DNA of 64,000 nucleotides, taken from assembly GCF_021129235.1 (NCBI RefSeq), contig NZ_JAJOMA010000016.1:1-64000 (forward strand). The letters are read 5' to 3'. The notes below the pieces were generated by a model. It searched no databases and was not told the DNA's origin. It saw nothing but the letters and a program-made list of their open reading frames with translations. A program made the translations under genes and the position numbers. Shown one piece after another: positions 5,382-59,089 of this stretch. How positions within the stretch are numbered: position 1 is the stretch's first letter; each line of letters starts with the position of its first letter. This stretch comes from Kineosporia mesophila. Its GTDB lineage: Bacteria; Actinomycetota; Actinomycetes; Actinomycetales; Kineosporiaceae.

Positions 5382-6953
5382 CTACGGGGTACTGGTCGTC
5401 TCCGCCGGTTCCTCGGAGTCGGCCGCGGCGATCAGGGTCTGGTACTCACCCGCCGCCTTCGGGATCTGCGTGGGCTGGAAGATGGCTCCGGCGTAGTACG
5501 AGGCGTTCTCGTTGAAGTAGGCCTCGTAGGCCAGGTCCGAGCCCATGCTGGTGAAGAACTCGACCATCTTCTCGATGTAGAAGGCGTTGTCCCCGCCGTT
5601 GTTGCCGGCGTGAGCGGTGCCCGGGTAGCAGCCCCACTCCGGAACACTCATCTTCTTGCCGTGCTTCTTGGCGAAGTCGGCCCAGAACTTCAGGCCGAAG
5701 TCACCGTTGAGGTGCTCGTCCCAGGTCTGGTCGCTGGCTGCACCGGGCCACATGTCGTAGGAGTCGACACCGACGATGTCGACGAACTCATCCCCCGGGT
5801 AGGCCTGGGTGGCGTCGGCGAGACCCGCACTGACACCGCGGTTCACGGTCCAGTCCCACTTCAGGTCGGGAGCCGTGGTGCGCGCCGAGGTGACGATCTG
5901 ACGCCAGCACTGCGCGAACTGCCCCGGGTTGCTGGCGCTCCACAGGTACCAGTTGCCGTTGAACTCCCAGCCGAGCCGGATGATCGAGTCACCCATGCCG
6001 TTGTCGGCGAAGTTCTTGCCGAACTGCTTCCACTTGTCGTTGTACTGCCCGGCCGCACAGCCCGCCATGGTGGCACTGCTGTCGCCCTCCGGGATCGGCG
6101 CCACACCCAGCGCCTTCATGTAGGGCGTGTCCTTCCAGGCGTCGAAGATCCAGGTCGGGTTGATGACGTCGTCCCAGGTCTGGCGCGCGGGCCAGTCCAC
6201 GACCACGTCGACCGGGGCACCCCGCCAGGCCGCGAAGGCCTCGGCGTTGGCGGCGCTGCTGCCCGCCATGTAGAGGCCGCTGGCGCCCCACGGCAGACCC
6301 GAGCGGTTCGTCGTCGAGCACGGGTTCATGGCGCTGCCGTCGCTCGAGCCGGTGGTCTTGGTACTGGTGGACGTCGTGGTCGCCTCGGTGGAACCCTCCG
6401 CCGGAGCGGTGGTTTCGGTAGCAGTGGGCGTTGAGCACAGCGCGGGAACGGATGCCGTCGCGCTCGAGGTCGGCGCCCCCGTGGTCGCCGTACCGGTTGC
6501 CGTACCCGTCGCGGTGGCCGTCACGGTCGGGGCGCTGGTCGTCGTCGTGCTCGGGGTGCCCGTCGCACTGCTGGACGAGGTCGAATTGCCCGCTGTGTAG
6601 CCCGATTCCGTCGTGCTGGAGGGGCCACTCGGGGCAGGGATGACCGACTCGGAGGTCGCGGTGCTGGGGCCGGTCTGCCCCGGCGCGACCTCTTCCGGGC
6701 CGACCTCGTCCTGCCAGCGGCCGGGCCAGTTACCTGTGCTGTGCTTGTGGTCCCGGCGCCACTTCTTGCTCTTGGGCATGTCCGAGTAGTCGGAGATGTA
6801 GGCGGCGCCGTCCGTGCTCGTCCAGGAGACGGCCGGCCCGACCGCAGTTCTTTCCGGTTTCGGATCCTGGCCGGCGATCGCCGGCACGGTCCCGATTGCA
6901 GCAGCAACAACCACCAGTGCGGTCGCCGCCACAACCCGCTTCTTGGTCAGCAC
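5382..6953 (-). CDS. Secreted GH26-like glycoside hydrolase
   Basis: The protein has a basic N-terminus and a hydrophobic signal segment (KKRVVAATALVVVAAAIG ... AIAG), then a long low-complexity Ser/Thr/Ala linker of about 130 residues. A C-terminal TIM-barrel-type domain follows. The putative acid/base Glu330 (GWEFNGNW) and nucleophile Glu439 (VPEWG) are spaced as in GH26 mannanase-like enzymes. Substrate is probably a beta-glycan, but GH26 includes several specificities, so no gene name is given. The GTG at 6953 is preferred over the ATG at 6974: an AGGGGAG site sits nine bases before it and it yields a cleaner signal peptide. The unusual N-terminal segment before the linker (about residues 30-75) is unassigned. 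Confidence 0.82.
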   Translation of the reverse strand: MLTKKRVVAATALVVVAAAIGTVPAIAGQDPKPERTAVGPAVSWTSTDGAAYISDYSDMPKSKKWRRDHKHSTGNWPGRWQDEVGPEEVAPGQTGPSTATSESVIPAPSGPSSTTESGYTAGNSTSSSSATGTPSTTTTSAPTVTATATGTATGTATTGAPTSSATASVPALCSTPTATETTAPAEGSTEATTTSTSTKTTGSSDGSAMNPCSTTNRSGLPWGASGLYMAGSSAANAEAFAAWRGAPVDVVVDWPARQTWDDVINPTWIFDAWKDTPYMKALGVAPIPEGDSSATMAGCAAGQYNDKWKQFGKNFADNGMGDSIIRLGWEFNGNWYLWSASNPGQFAQCWRQIVTSARTTAPDLKWDWTVNRGVSAGLADATQAYPGDEFVDIVGVDSYDMWPGAASDQTWDEHLNGDFGLKFWADFAKKHGKKMSVPEWGCYPGTAHAGNNGGDNAFYIEKMVEFFTSMGSDLAYEAYFNENASYYAGAIFQPTQIPKAAGEYQTLIAAADSEEPAETTSTP

Positions 6954-7456
6954 GCCTTGCCACTCCCCTGTCATATGGCTCGTCCGAACCGTCCACGCCT
7001 AGTTGGCGCAGGTAACAGGGTGCAGTCACGCAATTGTCTAAATCTTAAAGAGACGTCAAGTTCAAACAGTTTCACCACTCAGTGTCACTGTTCATGACGG
7101 ATAGGGAGAGTCTGCTGTTCAGAGTGGGATTGAGGTGGTGCCAGCATCTCGTCACCGTGTCCTTTTACAACCCATCCTCCAGGGGTGCATCGACCCTGCG
7201 CAGGAGAATTTCAGCAGATCAGTCGGGAGATTTGACGACTCCGGAGCGTGTACGGGGAGACAAAGGGCACCAAGAGGGCAGTACCCGGCCCCCGCCAATC
7301 GATGATCAAGAATGTTAGGTCCGTGACTCCAGCAAATTCACTCCGTGATCATGCAGCACAACCCGTCGTGATCATGCGAACCTTCCCCTGAGACCCGGAA
7401 CACAGCCCTCCACGGCGAACGGGCGCGCTCCGGAAGACCGTGTTAGACCTGGCCTC
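6954..7456. other. Intergenic region, no convincing gene
   Basis: About 500 bases lie between the divergent GH26-like and CDF genes. The part nearest the glycosidase (7030-7085) is clearly A/T-richer than its surroundings and probably holds that gene's promoter. It includes the 13-mer TTTCACCACTCAG (7070-7082), which recurs at 46090-46102. Two degenerate copies of TGATCATGC occur at 7343-7380, related to the hairpin family elsewhere in the window. A 78-codon frame at 7082 has no supporting features. Confidence 0.6.
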
Positions 7457-53162: not shown

Positions 53163-53816
53163 TCAGGACGCGTCCGACAGCAGCTTCAGCATCTGCTGCA
53201 CCTGGGCCGACCGGGACTCGTCGATCCGCCCGGCCAGTTCGAGCACCCCGCCGTTCTCACCGTTCCCGGTGCCGTACTGGGCGATCTCGGCCCCGTTGCC
53301 CTGCTGGGCGAGCAGCAGGTTCAGGAACGTGGTCTGGAACGTGCTGCCGGAGGCCGACTTCAGGGCCTTGATGTCGGCCTTGGTCAGCGTGCTGACCCCA
53401 CCGTGCTCGGCGTGCAGGTCGCCTCCGGCCTCGAGCGGCTCACCCCAGGCCCTGAGCCAGCCCGACATCTCCGCCCGCTCGTCGTTCTCCGTGGTGCTGA
53501 TGGCCTCGATCAGCGCCTCGGCCTCCTTCGACAGGGTGCCCTCGCCGGCCAGGGCCGCCAGCTTCGCCGTCTCCACCTCCCGCGCGACCATCATCTGCAG
53601 GAACATCACGTCGGCGGCGTTGTGCCCGGTCTCCCCTCCGTCACCGGACTCGGTGGCCGGCGCCGTGGCGGGCGCCGCGTGCCCACCCGAAGAGATCGAC
53701 GCCGGGCCCGGGCCCGTGCTGATCGTGACGCCGTCCAGCGCGCCGCATCCCCCGAGCAGCAACGCGCACCCGGCCACCAGTGTGGCCACCGTCGAATCCC
53801 GCGCCGGACGCCTCAC
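53163..53816 (-). CDS. DUF305 lipoprotein coupled to the LPMO gene
   Basis: The 217-residue protein has a lipobox (LLLGGCG) and a DUF305 helical domain with the signature H-N-A-A-D-V-M-F-L-Q-M-M. The domain is duplicated in the usual way (about 70-120 and 150-200). DUF305 proteins such as cyanobacterial CopM bind copper in the periplasm. Here the second-position His residues of the canonical M-I-x-H-H are replaced (VAREVE). The GTG start overlaps the LPMO stop in a GTGA, implying linked expression with a copper enzyme. Confidence 0.85.
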   Translation of the reverse strand: MRRPARDSTVATLVAGCALLLGGCGALDGVTISTGPGPASISSGGHAAPATAPATESGDGGETGHNAADVMFLQMMVAREVETAKLAALAGEGTLSKEAEALIEAISTTENDERAEMSGWLRAWGEPLEAGGDLHAEHGGVSTLTKADIKALKSASGSTFQTTFLNLLLAQQGNGAEIAQYGTGNGENGGVLELAGRIDESRSAQVQQMLKLLSDAS

Positions 53817-54640
53817 TTCGGCAGCCACAGCGCGAGCACCGCGGAGGGCTCCCAGCCCGGCAGGGTGGTGTGCGACTGGCGGCACTCGTAGGTCACACCC
53901 TCGTAGGTCACCGTGTCGCCGCGGTCGTACCAGGTCCAGTCCTTCCACGCCGACCCGTCGGCCGGCATCCCGGTCTCGGTGGGCGTCTTGGTGGCAGTGG
54001 CAGTGGCAGTAGCAGTAGCAGTAGCAGTAGCAGTGGGCACCGGTGCTGAGGGCGCGGTGGTGGTCCTGTCCGGCGTCGGGGTAGATGTCGAGGTGGGTTT
54101 CGGGGTGGGTGCGGTCGAACCCCCGCCCGAGCCGCCGATGTTCACGTCGACGCAGTTGTAGAAGGCATTGACGGTGTCGGCGATGTTCCAGACCGCGAGA
54201 ACTGTGTGCTCTCCGGAGTAGTCACTGAGGTCGACGTCGTGCGAGACCGTCGCGTTGGGCTTGGCCCCCTTGTCGTCGAACGAGGCCACCTGCTGACCGT
54301 CGACGTAGTACACCCAGGTACTCGTCGAGTGCCGCGCGGTGAGGGTCCAGTTGAAGGTGACGTCGCCACGGACGTCGGTGGCCGGCCAGTGGCGCGACTC
54401 GTCGTCCAGCACAGCGAAGTTCGCATTGCCCCCGCTGCACTTCTTCGACCCCTTGGGGGCCTCCACGCTCTGCGGCTCGTACTGGATCGGGCCGCAGTCG
54501 GCGACGGCGCCACCGGCACACAGGGCCTGCCGGCTGGGTGGGGACGAGATGTAACCGTGAGCACTGGCCGGGCCGGCGAGAGCCACGCCGGCCAGGGCCG
54601 TGACCGTCGTCGCCAGCGGGAGGACGATCTTTTTGCGCAT
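53813..54640 (-). CDS. AA10 lytic polysaccharide monooxygenase with CBM5/12
   Basis: A secreted copper enzyme that cuts crystalline chitin or cellulose oxidatively. A signal peptide ends at ASA before His28, the first copper ligand. The second His of the brace is His104 in TARHSTSTW, with the axial Phe in NAFYNCVD. A linker of about 60 residues is rich in Thr, Ala and Pro and has hexanucleotide repeats. A C-terminal CBM5/12 (about 228-275, WYDRGDTVTYEGVTYEC) follows. It is the first gene of a coupled pair with the DUF305 lipoprotein. Confidence 0.94.
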   Translation of the reverse strand: MRKKIVLPLATTVTALAGVALAGPASAHGYISSPPSRQALCAGGAVADCGPIQYEPQSVEAPKGSKKCSGGNANFAVLDDESRHWPATDVRGDVTFNWTLTARHSTSTWVYYVDGQQVASFDDKGAKPNATVSHDVDLSDYSGEHTVLAVWNIADTVNAFYNCVDVNIGGSGGGSTAPTPKPTSTSTPTPDRTTTAPSAPVPTATATATATATATATKTPTETGMPADGSAWKDWTWYDRGDTVTYEGVTYECRQSHTTLPGWEPSAVLALWLPK

Positions 54641-55190
54641 GGTGAAGCACTCCTGTCAGGGATGGAGTGACCGGCGGATCGGGCCGGACAGGCACCATCG
54701 TTCTCAGTCCAGGCCACCGATCTCAAGCCGACAACGATCATTTAAAGGGGCCTTGACCAGGCAATGAGCCTGGCGTACCCCTGGTGACACTTCGGGGCCG
54801 AAATCCCGCAACCCCCGGTGACCCATCCGGCACCCGACGTGACCGCGCGCAGATCAGGGACCGATTCGGATCCGCAGGCCGGGGCAATCAGCCAGGCTGG
54901 GGCACGAGCGGTCGAAAGGTTGCCCGGGCCGGTGGGAAATCTTCCCCCGGATTTACGTTATGCACGCATCGGGTTCATCGCCACCAACGCATTCTTGACA
55001 CTCCCCGGACCTGCCCATGACCTGTTCCCGGGCAACCTTTTCGGTGTTTGACAGGCCATATCAAGCTGACGAGGATTCACGACGCCACCCCACGGAATCG
55101 AAAAGTTCTCCCCGGCAGCATCACTGCCCGGGGTGATTCCGTACGTCCGCCCCCGGGTGGCAACCGATGATCGGTGAGAGAAGGAATCCC
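54641..55190. other. Intergenic region between divergent polysaccharide-attack genes
   Basis: About 550 bases separate the LPMO and rhamnogalacturonan lyase starts. Near the LPMO the sequence becomes A/T-rich (CCTTTAAATGATC on the minus strand, 54738-54750), a probable promoter. A weak hairpin CCGGTGGGAAATCTTCCCCC occurs near 54930. No riboswitch class could be matched and no gene is supported. Confidence 0.5.
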
Positions 55191-57065
55191 GTGAGCCAAC
55201 GTCGTCACCCCAACCGGCGCCGCACCGTCGCGATCGCCGCCGGGATCGCCGTGACCGGCAGCCTCGCAGCCGCCGGCACCAGTTTCGCCGTCGGGCGCTC
55301 CCCGAGCACGACCACCGCAGCCTCCACCTCGTCCTCCATTTCCGCTGCCGCCACTAAGGTGACCGTCGCCGGGCACCAGCTGGAGACACTGGGCCGGGGC
55401 GCGATCAGCGTGCACTCCAGCACCGGGAACCTGGTCAGCTGGCGGCTCCTGGCCACCGACTCCAAGACCGCGTCGTTCGACGTCTACCGCAACGGCACGC
55501 TGGTCAAGTCGGGTATCACCGGTTCCACGAACTACCTGGACAAGGGCGCTGCGGCCACGGCCACCTATACGGTGAAGACCGGCTCGGAGACGGCAACGGT
55601 GCGAAACCTGTCGGACGGGTCGCTGCGGGTGCCGCTGAAGAAGCCGGCCGGCGGGACCACCAAGGACGGTGTCGCGTACACCTACACAGCCAACGACGCC
55701 TCGGTGGCCGACCTGGACGGCGACGGCGAGTTCGAGATCGTGCTCAAGTGGGACCCGACCAACTCCAAGGACAACTCCCAGTCGGGCTACACGGGCAACG
55801 TCTACGTGGACGCGTACGAGCTCGACGGAACCCAGCTGTGGCGCATCGACCTGGGCAGGAACATCCGGGCCGGCGCGCACTACACACAGTTCCAGGCCTA
55901 CGACTACGACGGTGACGGCAAGGCCGAGGTCGCGATGAAGACGGCCGACGGCACCAAGGACGGCAAGGGCACGGTGATCGGCAGCTCGAGCGCCGACTAC
56001 CGCAACAGCAGCGGTTACATCCTCACCGGTCCCGAGTACCTGACCATGTTCAACGGCCAGACCGGCGCCGCCGCCTCGACCGTCGACTACACGCCCGCCC
56101 GCGGCACGGTCTCCAGCTGGGGTGACAGTTACGGCAACCGCGTCGACCGCTTCCTGGCCGGCACCGCCTACCTCAGCGGCAGCACGCCCAGCCTGATCGA
56201 GGCGCGCGGTTACTACACCCGCTCGGTCGTCACGGCCTGGGACTACAAGGGCGGAAAGCTCACCCAGCGCTGGCAGTTCGACTCGAGCAAGCAGACCACG
56301 CCGGCCAACTGGGCGGGTCAGGGCAATCACCAGCTCTCCGTGGCCGACGTGGACAGCGACGGCAAGGACGAGATCATCTACGGCTCGATGGCTCTCGACG
56401 ACACCGGCAAGGGCCTGTGGACGACGAAGCTGGGCCACGGCGACACCCTGCACGTGGGTGACCTGATCCCGACCCGCGCCGGCCTCGAGGTGTTCAAGGT
56501 CCGCGAGGAGAAGAACAGCGGCCCGGCCGACTTCATCGCCGACGCGGCCACCGGCGCGATCATCAGCAAGTCGGCCAGCTGCGGCTGCGACACCGGTCGC
56601 GGCGTGGCGGAAGACATCTACGCGGGCAGCCCGGGCGCCGAGCAGTGGTCGTCCAGCGTCGACGGTGTGCGCAACACCAGCGGCACCAAGATCGGCTCCA
56701 AGCCCAGCTCCACCAACTTCCTGGTGTGGTGGGACGGCGACCTCTCCCGCGAGCTGCTCGACAGCAACAAGATCAGCAAGTGGACGCCGACCGGCGAGAC
56801 CCGTCTGCTGACCGCCTCGGGCGTTCACTCCAACAACAGCACCAAGGCCACGCCGTCCCTCTCGGGCGACATCCTCGGTGACTGGCGTGAGGAAGTGATT
56901 CTGCCGGAGTCGGACGACACCGCACTGCGCATCTTCAGCACGCCGATCGAGACCTCCACCCGCCTGGTCACCCTCACCCAGGACTCGATGTACCGGGTGG
57001 CGCTGGCCTGGCAGAACACCGCCTACAACCAGCCGCCGCACCTGAGCTACGCCCTCCAGAAGTAA
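55191..57065 (+). CDS. Rhamnogalacturonan lyase, PL11 family
   Basis: The 624-residue secreted enzyme splits the pectin rhamnogalacturonan backbone. It has a Tat-like or Sec signal (NRRRTVAIAAGIAVTGSLAAAG), then an eight-bladed propeller domain. The repeated calcium loops of PL11 are visible: DLDGDGEFEIVLKWDPTN, YDYDGDGKAEVAMKTADGT and VDSDGKDEIIYGSMALDD. Near the C-terminus are FLVWWDGDLSRELLD and GDILGDWREEVILP. The GTG at 55191 follows an AAGGA site. It is followed after 20 bases by an unusual sigma factor gene. Confidence 0.94.
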   Translation: MSQRRHPNRRRTVAIAAGIAVTGSLAAAGTSFAVGRSPSTTTAASTSSSISAAATKVTVAGHQLETLGRGAISVHSSTGNLVSWRLLATDSKTASFDVYRNGTLVKSGITGSTNYLDKGAAATATYTVKTGSETATVRNLSDGSLRVPLKKPAGGTTKDGVAYTYTANDASVADLDGDGEFEIVLKWDPTNSKDNSQSGYTGNVYVDAYELDGTQLWRIDLGRNIRAGAHYTQFQAYDYDGDGKAEVAMKTADGTKDGKGTVIGSSSADYRNSSGYILTGPEYLTMFNGQTGAAASTVDYTPARGTVSSWGDSYGNRVDRFLAGTAYLSGSTPSLIEARGYYTRSVVTAWDYKGGKLTQRWQFDSSKQTTPANWAGQGNHQLSVADVDSDGKDEIIYGSMALDDTGKGLWTTKLGHGDTLHVGDLIPTRAGLEVFKVREEKNSGPADFIADAATGAIISKSASCGCDTGRGVAEDIYAGSPGAEQWSSSVDGVRNTSGTKIGSKPSSTNFLVWWDGDLSRELLDSNKISKWTPTGETRLLTASGVHSNNSTKATPSLSGDILGDWREEVILPESDDTALRIFSTPIETSTRLVTLTQDSMYRVALAWQNTAYNQPPHLSYALQK

Positions 57066-57085
57066 GCCTCACAAGGGAAAAGACC

Positions 57086-59089
57086 ATGCAAGAGGACGAA
57101 CCGGGTCTGGTGCGCGATGCCCAGGCCGGTGATCACGACGCCCTTCGGGAACTCCTGGCCCGGTACGTTCCTCTCGTCTACAACCTCGTCGGCCGGTCGG
57201 TGAGCCGGCCGGCCGACGTGGACGACGTGACACAGGAAGTCCTGCTGCGCGTCGTGCGCGACCTGCCCGGTCTGGAGAGCCCGGCCAGTTTCCGGTCGTG
57301 GCTCGTGACCATCACCGTGCACCAGATCGGTGATCACTTCCGTCGTCCCGTCACCGAGGTGCCCGCTCCGGTGAGCGACGACTGGCTTGTGGACGTCGGT
57401 GGGCGCGGCGAGATCTCTCTGGAGTTCGAGGATCTCGCCGTGCTCTGGCTGGACCTCAAGGGTCAGCACCGGGATCTGGTGCGGGCCGGTCAATGGCTCG
57501 ACCAGGAGCACCGCGCGCTGCTCGCCCTCTGGTGGGAGGAGTGCGCCGGGCGGATCACCCGCACCGAGATCGCCGCCTCGCTGGACCTGGGCGAGGCCCA
57601 CACCGCGGTGCGTCTGCAACGCATGCGGGAACAGCTGGAGCAGTGCCGGGTCGCGGTGGTCGCGCTGGAACGCCGACCGCTCTGCGAGGGCCTGGCCGCG
57701 ATCGTCACCGACTGGGACGGCGATCCGAACACGCTGTGGCGCAAGCGGATCACCAAGCATGTGCGCACCTGCGTGGTGTGCCTGCGGGAGGCCGAGCACC
57801 AGGTCCCGACCTCACGGCTGATCGCCGGGCTGCAGCTGCTGCCGCTGCCCGCCGCGCTCATCGCCGCGCTGGTGGAGAAGGGCCTGCTGACGGCGGAGCA
57901 GTGGGAGGACGCCGAACTGGTGGCCGCCTCCACCGCCGACCCCGACAACCCCGACGACCCCCGGCACGACCTGCCCGGGGACCACACTGCCTGGAGCACC
58001 GTGCGCTGGGCCGGGCGGGTCGCCACCGTGACCACCGCCGCCACCCTGCTGCTCTTCGTCGGTGGCTTCCTCTACGACGTGAGCCAGACACCGCCGGTGC
58101 GGCAGGAGGTGCCCCGTGACACCACGGCCGTGAGCGCCGCGATGTCGACGATCTCCCCCACCCCGGCACCGGCCACGACCTCGGCCGCCACCTCGGTGAG
58201 CCCGACACCCGAACCGACGAAAACGTCCATTCGCAAGAAAGCAGTGGCCACCGACCGCTGCGCCCGCACGGGCGCCCCCGACGCGGTGTGGGCCGGCTGG
58301 ACCATGCCGAACTCCGGTGAGGGGCTACCGGACCAGCACCGCTACACGGTGCGCCAGGACGGCACGGTGGTGGACGAGGTGACCTGTCTGGTCTGGCAGC
58401 GCTCGAGCGCGGCGAACTCCTACACCTATGCGGGTGCCCAGAGTTACTGCAAGAACCTGAAGCTCGCGGACGGTGACTGGAGCGTGCCGACCCGGGTCGA
58501 GCTGACCTCGCTGATCGACACCACCCGCTCCGGCCCGGCGATCGACACCAAGGCCTTCCCCGACACCCCCGTGGCCTTCTTCTGGACGTCGTCCCCGTGG
58601 GCCACGGAGCACGATCCGGCCTTCGCCTGGATCGTGAACTTCTTCGAGGGACTGACCAGCAACGCGGCCGAGGAGTCGGGCAAGTTCTCGGTGCGCTGCG
58701 TGCAGTCCGCCGGCGGCTCCGGCGCGGCGAAGTACACGATCGCCGACGGTCAGGTGAAAGACCCGATGACCGGGCTGGTCTGGCAGCGCAGCAGCTCGAG
58801 CGCGATGGCCGCCCCGAAGGCCTCCGGCTACTGCTCGAACCTCGCCCTGGGCGGTGAGAAGTGGCGTCTGCCGGGGGTTCAGGAGCTCGCCACGCTGGTC
58901 GACGAGTCACTGGTCGGCCCGGCGATCAACCGGAAGGCCTTCCCCGACACCCCGGCCCGCGGCTGGTACTGGGCCGCGAACCGGGCTGCCCCGGAGGAGG
59001 GTTCACGCTGGGCGCTGAACTACGACGACGGGTACTCGAACTACCGGGACCTGACGTCGGGTGTGGTGCGCTGCGTCAGAACTGCCTGA
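57086..59089 (+). CDS. ECF sigma factor fused to ZAS-like motif, membrane helix and two extracellular DUF1566 domains
   Basis: The 667-residue protein begins with sigma region 2 (about 10-85, PADVDDVTQEVLLRVVRDL) and region 4 (about 150-200, ITRTEIAASLDLGEAHTAVRLQRMR). A His225-x3-Cys229-x2-Cys232 motif follows, identical in spacing to zinc-binding anti-sigma domains. One membrane helix (about 312-331) and a Thr/Pro linker come next. Two DUF1566/Lcl-type domains (about 419-540 and 549-667), each with G-L-V-W-Q-R-S and W-(S/R)-(V/L)-P-x-x-x-E-L, end the protein. It is likely an outside-in regulator held at the membrane, co-transcribed with the pectin lyase. Confidence 0.88.
   Translation: MQEDEPGLVRDAQAGDHDALRELLARYVPLVYNLVGRSVSRPADVDDVTQEVLLRVVRDLPGLESPASFRSWLVTITVHQIGDHFRRPVTEVPAPVSDDWLVDVGGRGEISLEFEDLAVLWLDLKGQHRDLVRAGQWLDQEHRALLALWWEECAGRITRTEIAASLDLGEAHTAVRLQRMREQLEQCRVAVVALERRPLCEGLAAIVTDWDGDPNTLWRKRITKHVRTCVVCLREAEHQVPTSRLIAGLQLLPLPAALIAALVEKGLLTAEQWEDAELVAASTADPDNPDDPRHDLPGDHTAWSTVRWAGRVATVTTAATLLLFVGGFLYDVSQTPPVRQEVPRDTTAVSAAMSTISPTPAPATTSAATSVSPTPEPTKTSIRKKAVATDRCARTGAPDAVWAGWTMPNSGEGLPDQHRYTVRQDGTVVDEVTCLVWQRSSAANSYTYAGAQSYCKNLKLADGDWSVPTRVELTSLIDTTRSGPAIDTKAFPDTPVAFFWTSSPWATEHDPAFAWIVNFFEGLTSNAAEESGKFSVRCVQSAGGSGAAKYTIADGQVKDPMTGLVWQRSSSSAMAAPKASGYCSNLALGGEKWRLPGVQELATLVDESLVGPAINRKAFPDTPARGWYWAANRAAPEEGSRWALNYDDGYSNYRDLTSGVVRCVRTA

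Follow-up and report, generated by a model that had tools for sequence, protein, structure and literature searches.

The window analyzed here is a 64,000-nucleotide stretch of DNA from Kineosporia mesophila (contig NZ_JAJOMA010000016.1, positions 1 to 64,000). Directly downstream of a PL11 rhamnogalacturonan lyase, it encodes a 667-residue protein that carries an extracytoplasmic function (ECF) sigma factor, a zinc anti-sigma segment, a membrane helix, and two Lcl_C (DUF1566) domains. On balance, we favor the interpretation that this protein is a polysaccharide receptor and a transcription factor in one chain, and that it represents the Lcl_C version of an actinobacterial family with exchangeable ectodomains. 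The features on which this interpretation is built are collected in Table 1.

The preliminary description of this DNA had placed an ECF sigma, an H-x3-C-x2-C anti-sigma motif, a membrane helix, and two DUF1566 domains in a single chain, and this observation was confirmed. Membership among the ECF sigmas, which have regions 2 and 4 only, is indicated by PF04542, by a TIGR02937 match to residues 18–186 that lies above its cut-off, and by alignment of our family core profile with the solved full-length ECF sigma 6in7_B over positions 2–184. No Pfam match to region 4 was obtained at E ≤ 0.1 in the 667-residue protein; absence of region 4 was considered and rejected, because the TIGR02937 and solved-structure matches span it. 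Two alignments, one of 23 rows and one of 39, show C200, H225, C229, and C232 in every row (23/23 and 39/39), and the row from locus L037 has H-x4-C in place of H-x3-C. With C200 as the fourth zinc ligand besides H225-x3-C229-x2-C232, the segment has the makeup of a zinc anti-sigma (ZAS) domain. No zf-HC2 match was found by Pfam in the window protein at E ≤ 0.1, and the assignment of the zinc domain therefore rests on the motif and its conservation.

Residues 312–330 likely form the one membrane crossing, with the sigma part inside, a topology predicted from hydropathy, charge bias, and an AlphaFold model; the membrane-spanning character that had been proposed for the helix at 312–331 thus holds at the level of prediction. 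The model is confident for most of residues 1–86 and 115–240 and shows, at low confidence, a single helix over residues 301–330 that covers this segment. A second hydrophobic stretch (residues 245–263) has a hydropathy of 2.19, above that of 312–330, contains prolines, and is modeled as short separate helices; two membrane crossings were judged unlikely from the model and the charge bias. Among 132 classified family members, Lys and Arg are richer before the helix than after it in 90, equal in 33, and poorer in 9, which fits a single crossing with the sigma part inside. This bias is weak in the six Lcl-type members (2.5 versus 2.17); it is the CAP type (6.84 versus 1.16) that dominates the average over the family.

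Both Lcl_C domains score above the curated PF07603 cut-off of 34.9 bits and are 40% identical to each other. The ectodomain contains six cysteines (392, 434, 455, 538, 583, and 663), and a sequence search of it against solved structures gave no match better than E = 0.24. In the whole-protein AlphaFold model, the ectodomain is at low confidence because only the window row of the alignment covers it.

We searched for orthologs in 58 genomes of the order, six of them from the genus of the window and including the window genome itself (G000). Full-length or near full-length orthologs occur in all six genus genomes, each directly downstream of a PL11 gene and in the same direction (6/6); an architecture kept in this way is not a product of chance. 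In the window, the PL11 gene begins with GTG at 55191 and its stop ends at 57065, and the start and a GAGGAAT leader are kept in 6/6 orthologs. The gap to the sigma gene start is exactly 20 bases, as the preliminary description had stated. The ortholog in genome G003 (L044 8277-9866) has a single Lcl_C domain, its region 2 match is weak (E = 3e-4) and falls short of the Pfam cut-off, and 24 residues rich in Gly, Asp, Ser, and Asn are inserted between C200 and H225; the fused sigma is perhaps decaying in this genome.

Across the class, Lcl_C matches occur in 26 of 394 genomes. Of the 55 such matches outside G000, 28 were fetched as loci, and no sigma core was found within about 1.5 kb on either side of Lcl_C (0/28). 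Nor did we find a report of a sigma–Lcl_C protein in the literature on fused sigmas with sugar domains or DUF1566, a coverage outside which most subscription papers lie. The preliminary description had called for a search for the sigma-plus-DUF1566 architecture. Its retention beside PL11 is borne out in 6/6 genus genomes; it is not an isolated form, however, and is one member of the exchangeable-ectodomain family described below.

Table 1. Features of the PL11–sigma operon and related elements (window coordinates)
Feature	Position	Strand	Evidence
PL11 rhamnogalacturonan lyase, N-terminal signal-like segment	55191..57065	+	RGL11_C E = 4e-233, RGI_lyase E = 2.1e-22
Fused ECF sigma/anti-sigma/membrane/Lcl_C protein, 667 aa	57086..59089	+	Pfam, TIGR02937, conservation
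Sigma region 2, residues 23-87	57152..57346	+	PF04542 (Sigma70_r2) E = 2.8e-14
Sigma region 4, about residues 137-186	57494..57643	+	TIGR02937 18-186; core profile versus 6in7_B 2-184; modeled helices 140-195
Zinc anti-sigma motif C200-x24-H225-x3-C229-x2-C232	57683..57781	+	invariant in aligned relatives
Predicted membrane helix, residues 312-330	58019..58075	+	hydropathy 1.78; modeled as helix 301-330
P/S/T-rich linker, presumed outside	58076..58360	+	mean P+S+T 0.47 over 61 residues past helix, six Lcl-type members
First Lcl_C (DUF1566)	58361..58702	+	PF07603 E = 9.5e-27, 96.2 bits
Second Lcl_C (DUF1566)	58751..59080	+	PF07603 E = 1.2e-22, 83.1 bits
CGTTATG, possible -35 related to TGTTATC	54956..54962	+	best family -35 profile site upstream of PL11
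GGGCAACCTTT facing PL11	55030..55040	+	common to other pectin genes and stand-alone SigE-family sigma gene
Inverted GGGCAACCTTT facing divergent LPMO gene	54915..54925	-	conservation, genome-wide copies
Further GGGCAACCTTT loci: L306, L309, L310, L316, L317, L320, L321
AA10 lytic polysaccharide monooxygenase (LPMO) with CBM5/12, divergent from PL11	53813..54640	-	LPMO_10 E = 2.1e-26; neighbor cluster CL6; in all 6 genus genomes

Sequence comparison places the window protein in a family with a constant sigma/anti-sigma core and exchangeable ectodomains. The core is matched at E ≤ 1e-20 in 58 of 394 class genomes, and a contig scan kept 80 loci from Streptomyces, Lentzea, Actinoplanes, Micromonospora, Catellatospora, Nonomuraea, and others. 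If two split matches are set aside, core scores are bimodal, with members above 250 bits and a distant set at 77–130 bits that carries Ser/Thr-rich or Ig-like tails. The 132 classified members comprise 51 with CAP ectodomains, 32 with AbfB, 15 with PF11790 (a catalytic-core domain that we take to be GH128-like), 14 of a type that we call D, 10 with a beta-helix, six with Lcl_C, three of a second CAP-like type, and one GH99-like. They derive from 66 of the 75 genes called in the 80 contig loci, 45 of 47 high-scoring genes of the class sample, and 21 hand-labeled genes from the genus and family. The total excludes nine plus two genes whose tails were cut or fell into no class, 10 distant fused sigmas with low scores, five contig loci in which no gene was called, both members in L053, and the single member in L009/L052. 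Gene calling relied on a GC3-based script that places starts only roughly, and the orthologs and near-copies in these counts are not independent.

The genus of the window holds three further ectodomain classes on the same core: beta-helix, AbfB, and D. The beta-helix class is a right-handed beta-helix with weak similarity to Pel9A. The D-type ectodomain, the C-terminal 220 residues in L121, L149, and L156, gave no Pfam match in the members scanned; its model, mostly beta strands at low confidence (pLDDT 51), gave no Foldseek match at E ≤ 0.001. When mapped onto a quick core tree, the labels for the ectodomains require 15 changes (outgroup label included) versus a shuffled mean of 74. Core and ectodomain, as judged from this tree, mostly travel together with some exchange, and near-copies contribute to the signal.

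We then compared the genes that adjoin family sigmas. Within the genus, beta-helix sigmas lie divergently beside a pectinesterase-RicinB-PL1 gene (6/6; Pfam on two), AbfB sigmas beside GH10, which in one of the proteins scanned is fused with GH62 (4/4; Pfam on three), and D sigmas beside an alginate-lyase-family gene (4/4; Pfam on two), the neighbors being assigned by sequence clusters in each case. Outside the genus, AbfB sigmas adjoin GH10, GH62, or GH43 in 21 of 28 cases, D sigmas an alginate-lyase-family gene in 2 of 10, and beta-helix sigmas PL1 with a pectinesterase next in 1 of 3; the one GH99-like sigma adjoins an alpha-1,3-glucanase (1/1). The AbfB orientation varies, being divergent in the genus of the window and same-direction downstream in 17 of 24 contig loci, and this difference between genera indicates that the association with the enzyme survived rearrangement. 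Matches to our enzyme library fall on 32 of 220 genes at distance 1, 4 of 428 at distance 2–3, and 7 of 847 at distance ≥4; the library was built from family neighbors, so that this test is partly circular and serves as a position control only, with other enzyme families uncounted.

The preliminary description had made a link of the homologues with polysaccharide genes a test of its proposal, and this link is present: the orthologs follow PL11, and the paralogs adjoin polysaccharide enzymes and share a promoter type with them. In one locus (L053 5949-13872, genome G008), a CBM2-PL11 gene is flanked on its two sides by fused sigmas, of which one carries AbfB plus a GH32/43-like segment and the other a beta-helix. 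The second CAP type has no enzyme-library neighbor (0/3). CAP-type sigmas at L139 11775-12779 and L157 10403-11404 adjoin a papain-family protease gene with the same promoter type, and the CAP type may sense something other than sugar.

A TGTTATC word followed 14–18 bases on by a GTC-like element lies upstream of 44 of the 132 sigma genes of the family. Among the remaining genes in the same loci, it precedes 9 of 262 that are adjacent and 2 of 1542 that are not. The stretch searched was 450 bases, measured from the core start, in family sigmas and 360 bases around the called start elsewhere. The second element is class-specific: GTCTCC in the CAP, GH128-like, and D types; GTCGC in the AbfB loci of the genus, on both the sigma side and the GH10 side; and GACTAC on the pectinesterase side of the beta-helix loci. 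GATAAC words noticed at first in the aligned intergenic regions are this TGTTATC element read on the opposite strand. A reading in which all six genomes have the same pectinesterase promoter was dropped, since the exact pattern stands at that gene in four genomes and the other two have TGTTATT and GGTTATG.

These class-specific promoters were also searched for genome-wide. TGTTATC-N13-18-GACTAC has five matches in the six genus genomes, versus one for the reversed control; four stand at the pectinesterase-PL1 gene and one, in G002, before an unlinked pectinesterase. TTGTTATC-N16-18-GTCGC has four matches in the same genomes (control 0), three in regions that separate an AbfB sigma gene from a GH10 gene and a fourth in G000 with no called gene around the site. 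In 12 genomes of one genus, TGTTATC-N15-18-GTCTCC has 13 matches (control 0). Nine of these are at sigma genes of the family; the other four are unlinked and occur in exactly the 4 of 12 genomes whose fetched family genes include the D type. The unlinked genes (L374, L375, L366, and L371) comprise two of the alginate-lyase family (Pfam on one, the other about 91% identical) and two encoding a repeat protein 54–55% identical to the one encoded beside the L149 D-type sigma. As predictions, these promoter matches connect sigma class with enzyme class without recourse to gene order.

At the window operon, the sigma gene is second; among Lcl-type sigma genes, none has a family promoter of its own (0/6). 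The best site upstream of PL11, CGTTATG, recurs at a similar position in 5 of 6 genomes and is missing in G003, with shuffle p values of 0.02 in the window, 0/200 to 0.11 in the other four genomes, and 0.3 in G003. The longer word TTTACGTTATS has six matches in the six genomes (control 1), five at the PL11 operon and one elsewhere in G004, and occurs once in G000. The loss of CGTTATG in the genome whose sigma is altered is suggestive, as one case.

A second element, GGGCAACCTTT, is invariant upstream of PL11 in 6/6 genus genomes and has an inverted copy toward the LPMO gene. Each genus genome contains 5–12 copies, versus 0–2 for the reversed word, and copies lie in front of genes for a PL3 pectate lyase, a GH5-CBM2 protein, in G003 a PL9 lyase, and a stand-alone SigE-family sigma, the last with two copies about 1.7 kb apart. 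In another genus, too, GGGCAACCTTT stands before the stand-alone sigma, which weakens the case for it as the fused sigma's own promoter. By its distribution, GGGCAACCTTT likely marks a second ECF regulon for the plant cell wall that includes pectin and cellulose enzymes, and the PL11 operon may answer to two sigma factors.

Several observations weigh against a receptor that controls its neighboring enzyme. G003 retains PL11 although its sigma ortholog has one Lcl_C domain, a weak region 2, and an insertion. GH128-like sigmas have no enzyme-library neighbor (0/15), and the CAP type, the commonest in the family (51/132), has one in 3 of 51 cases (GH6). The TGTTATC promoter precedes only 2 of 32 AbfB sigma genes overall, and those outside the genus mostly lack the word. 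The window operon is without an exact family promoter, CGTTATG being a variant with no conserved -10. Finally, GGGCAACCTTT stands before the stand-alone SigE-family sigma gene in 6/6 genus genomes and in one other genus. Together with the over-representation of GGGCAACCTTT, its invariance upstream of PL11, and its place before pectin genes, this last point suggests an alternative in which the stand-alone sigma activates the PL11 operon from the GGGCAACCTTT promoter as part of a pectin regulon, with the fused sigma as a downstream target whose own action is on other genes. We consider this alternative unlikely: the -10 at the stand-alone sigma (CGAC, 16 bases past GGGCAACCTTT) is missing at PL11, paralogous fused sigmas share promoters with the enzymes they adjoin, and the two controls can coexist.

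In the one-chain receptor that we favor, the sigma part would be kept at the membrane, where the fused zinc anti-sigma segment would silence it, and the two outside Lcl_C domains would probably recognize rhamnogalacturonan-I or the fragments released by PL11. Binding of this ligand would set the sigma part free, most likely through regulated cleavage, after which it would drive PL11 and its own gene in a positive loop. Several ectodomains of the family would be matched to the enzyme that the sigma controls. A different possibility is that the ligand pulls the anti-sigma segment off the sigma, which acts while tethered, by conformational change and without cleavage. Release of the fused sigma by cleavage is here something we infer by analogy, which leaves room for such a mechanism; we nevertheless regard it as quite unlikely, as cleavage activates the related one-chain protein IutY and, in the available text of PMC8999054, is what is expected of ECF48, ECF52, and ECF53. 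Improbable, finally, is a scheme in which the outside domains are not sugar readers and Lcl_C anchors the protein or forms trimers, with a mechanical, redox, or proteolytic signal: the Legionella Lcl C-terminal domain is a trimer and its authors, in the available text, leave the general role of DUF1566 open (PMC11162425), and the CAP ectodomain is not a known sugar binder and has the papain-family neighbor in two loci, but other members carry AbfB, Pel9A-like, GH99-like, and GH128-like domains and Lcl-type sigmas adjoin PL11 in 6/6 cases.

The closest kind of known protein is the fused sigmas of ECF52 and ECF53, which are described here from the accessible portions of the cited reports. ECF52 is represented by SCO4117 of Streptomyces coelicolor, which has a sigma, a zinc finger, a membrane helix, a proline-rich stretch, and an NPCBM-type outside domain; autoregulation and cleavage have been proposed for it, and it is described as a developmental regulator (PMC5826349). 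Like the window family, ECF52 is actinobacterial, with the same order of parts in one chain, including the zinc finger, helix, and proline-rich stretch. Unlike the window protein, with its Lcl_C domains, it carries a smart00776 (NPCBM type) module, and no NPCBM match was found anywhere in G000. Five SCO4117-like proteins score 35–43 bits on the family core profile versus more than 250 for members, with about 28% identity over the sigma part (two matched by blastp), and on this core score the window protein is not ECF52 proper. ECF53 comprises actinobacterial proteins with sigma, anti-sigma, and membrane parts, some with glycosyl hydrolase or carbohydrate-binding domains (PMC8999054, PMC10766802), and is described as not yet validated (PMC10766802). 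Compared by description only, the window family fits ECF53 in its C-terminal anti-sigma, membrane part, and sugar-acting domains. What can be tested in the window family is the pairing of outside domain, enzyme, and promoter.

The closest working analogue is SigI/RsgI of Clostridium thermocellum, in which, according to the sections available, paralogous sigma/anti-sigma sets sense polysaccharides through outside domains and their regulons hold matching enzymes (PMC10766802). That system has separate genes for a sigma of another family and a membrane anti-sigma, whereas the window protein is one chain with an ECF sigma and so falls outside it. IutY (ECF243) of Pseudomonas putida joins sigma and membrane anti-sigma in one cleavage-activated chain (PMC8999054, accessible part); unlike the window protein, it answers to an iron-siderophore signal via an outer-membrane receptor and has no sugar domain. 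The PF07603 domain is common to the window protein and Legionella Lcl, whose C-terminal domain binds sulfated glycans and glycosaminoglycans and is considered by its authors, in the part of the article at hand, to serve carbohydrate recognition and/or trimer formation (PMC11162425). Lcl differs from the window protein in being a secreted adhesin with a single domain, reported without disulfides, whereas the window ectodomain has its six cysteines.

The AA10 LPMO gene that diverges from PL11 is possibly a member of the same regulon as the PL11 operon. A DUF305 protein (53163-53948, minus strand) also lies divergent from the operon, with the LPMO, in 6/6 genus genomes. Elsewhere in the window (5382-6974, minus strand), a secreted-looking protein has a GH26 match at E = 4.2e-9.

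More tentatively, and as a possibility rather than an expectation, actinobacteria may possess a set of one-chain receptors in which a common core carries retired enzymes, sugar-binding modules, or lectin-like domains, each reading the polymer cut by its own target enzyme, with the window protein as the Lcl_C receptor for rhamnogalacturonan-I. This would propose a plant-polysaccharide ligand for Lcl_C/DUF1566; in the literature examined, as far as its accessible text extends, we did not find rhamnogalacturonan-I recorded for Lcl_C. The family supplies triplets of ectodomain, enzyme, and promoter for arabinoxylan, pectin, an alginate-lyase-family substrate, alpha-1,3-glucan, and rhamnogalacturonan, and such concrete triplets make both ligand and target testable in cultured actinomycetes. 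If the proposal is true, the family would be an actinobacterial one-gene counterpart of SigI/RsgI and would offer single-gene sugar-to-transcription switches for engineering. Its promoters would then allow the substrates of uncharacterized ectodomains to be guessed, with the ectodomain predicting the regulon and the regulon predicting the ligand.

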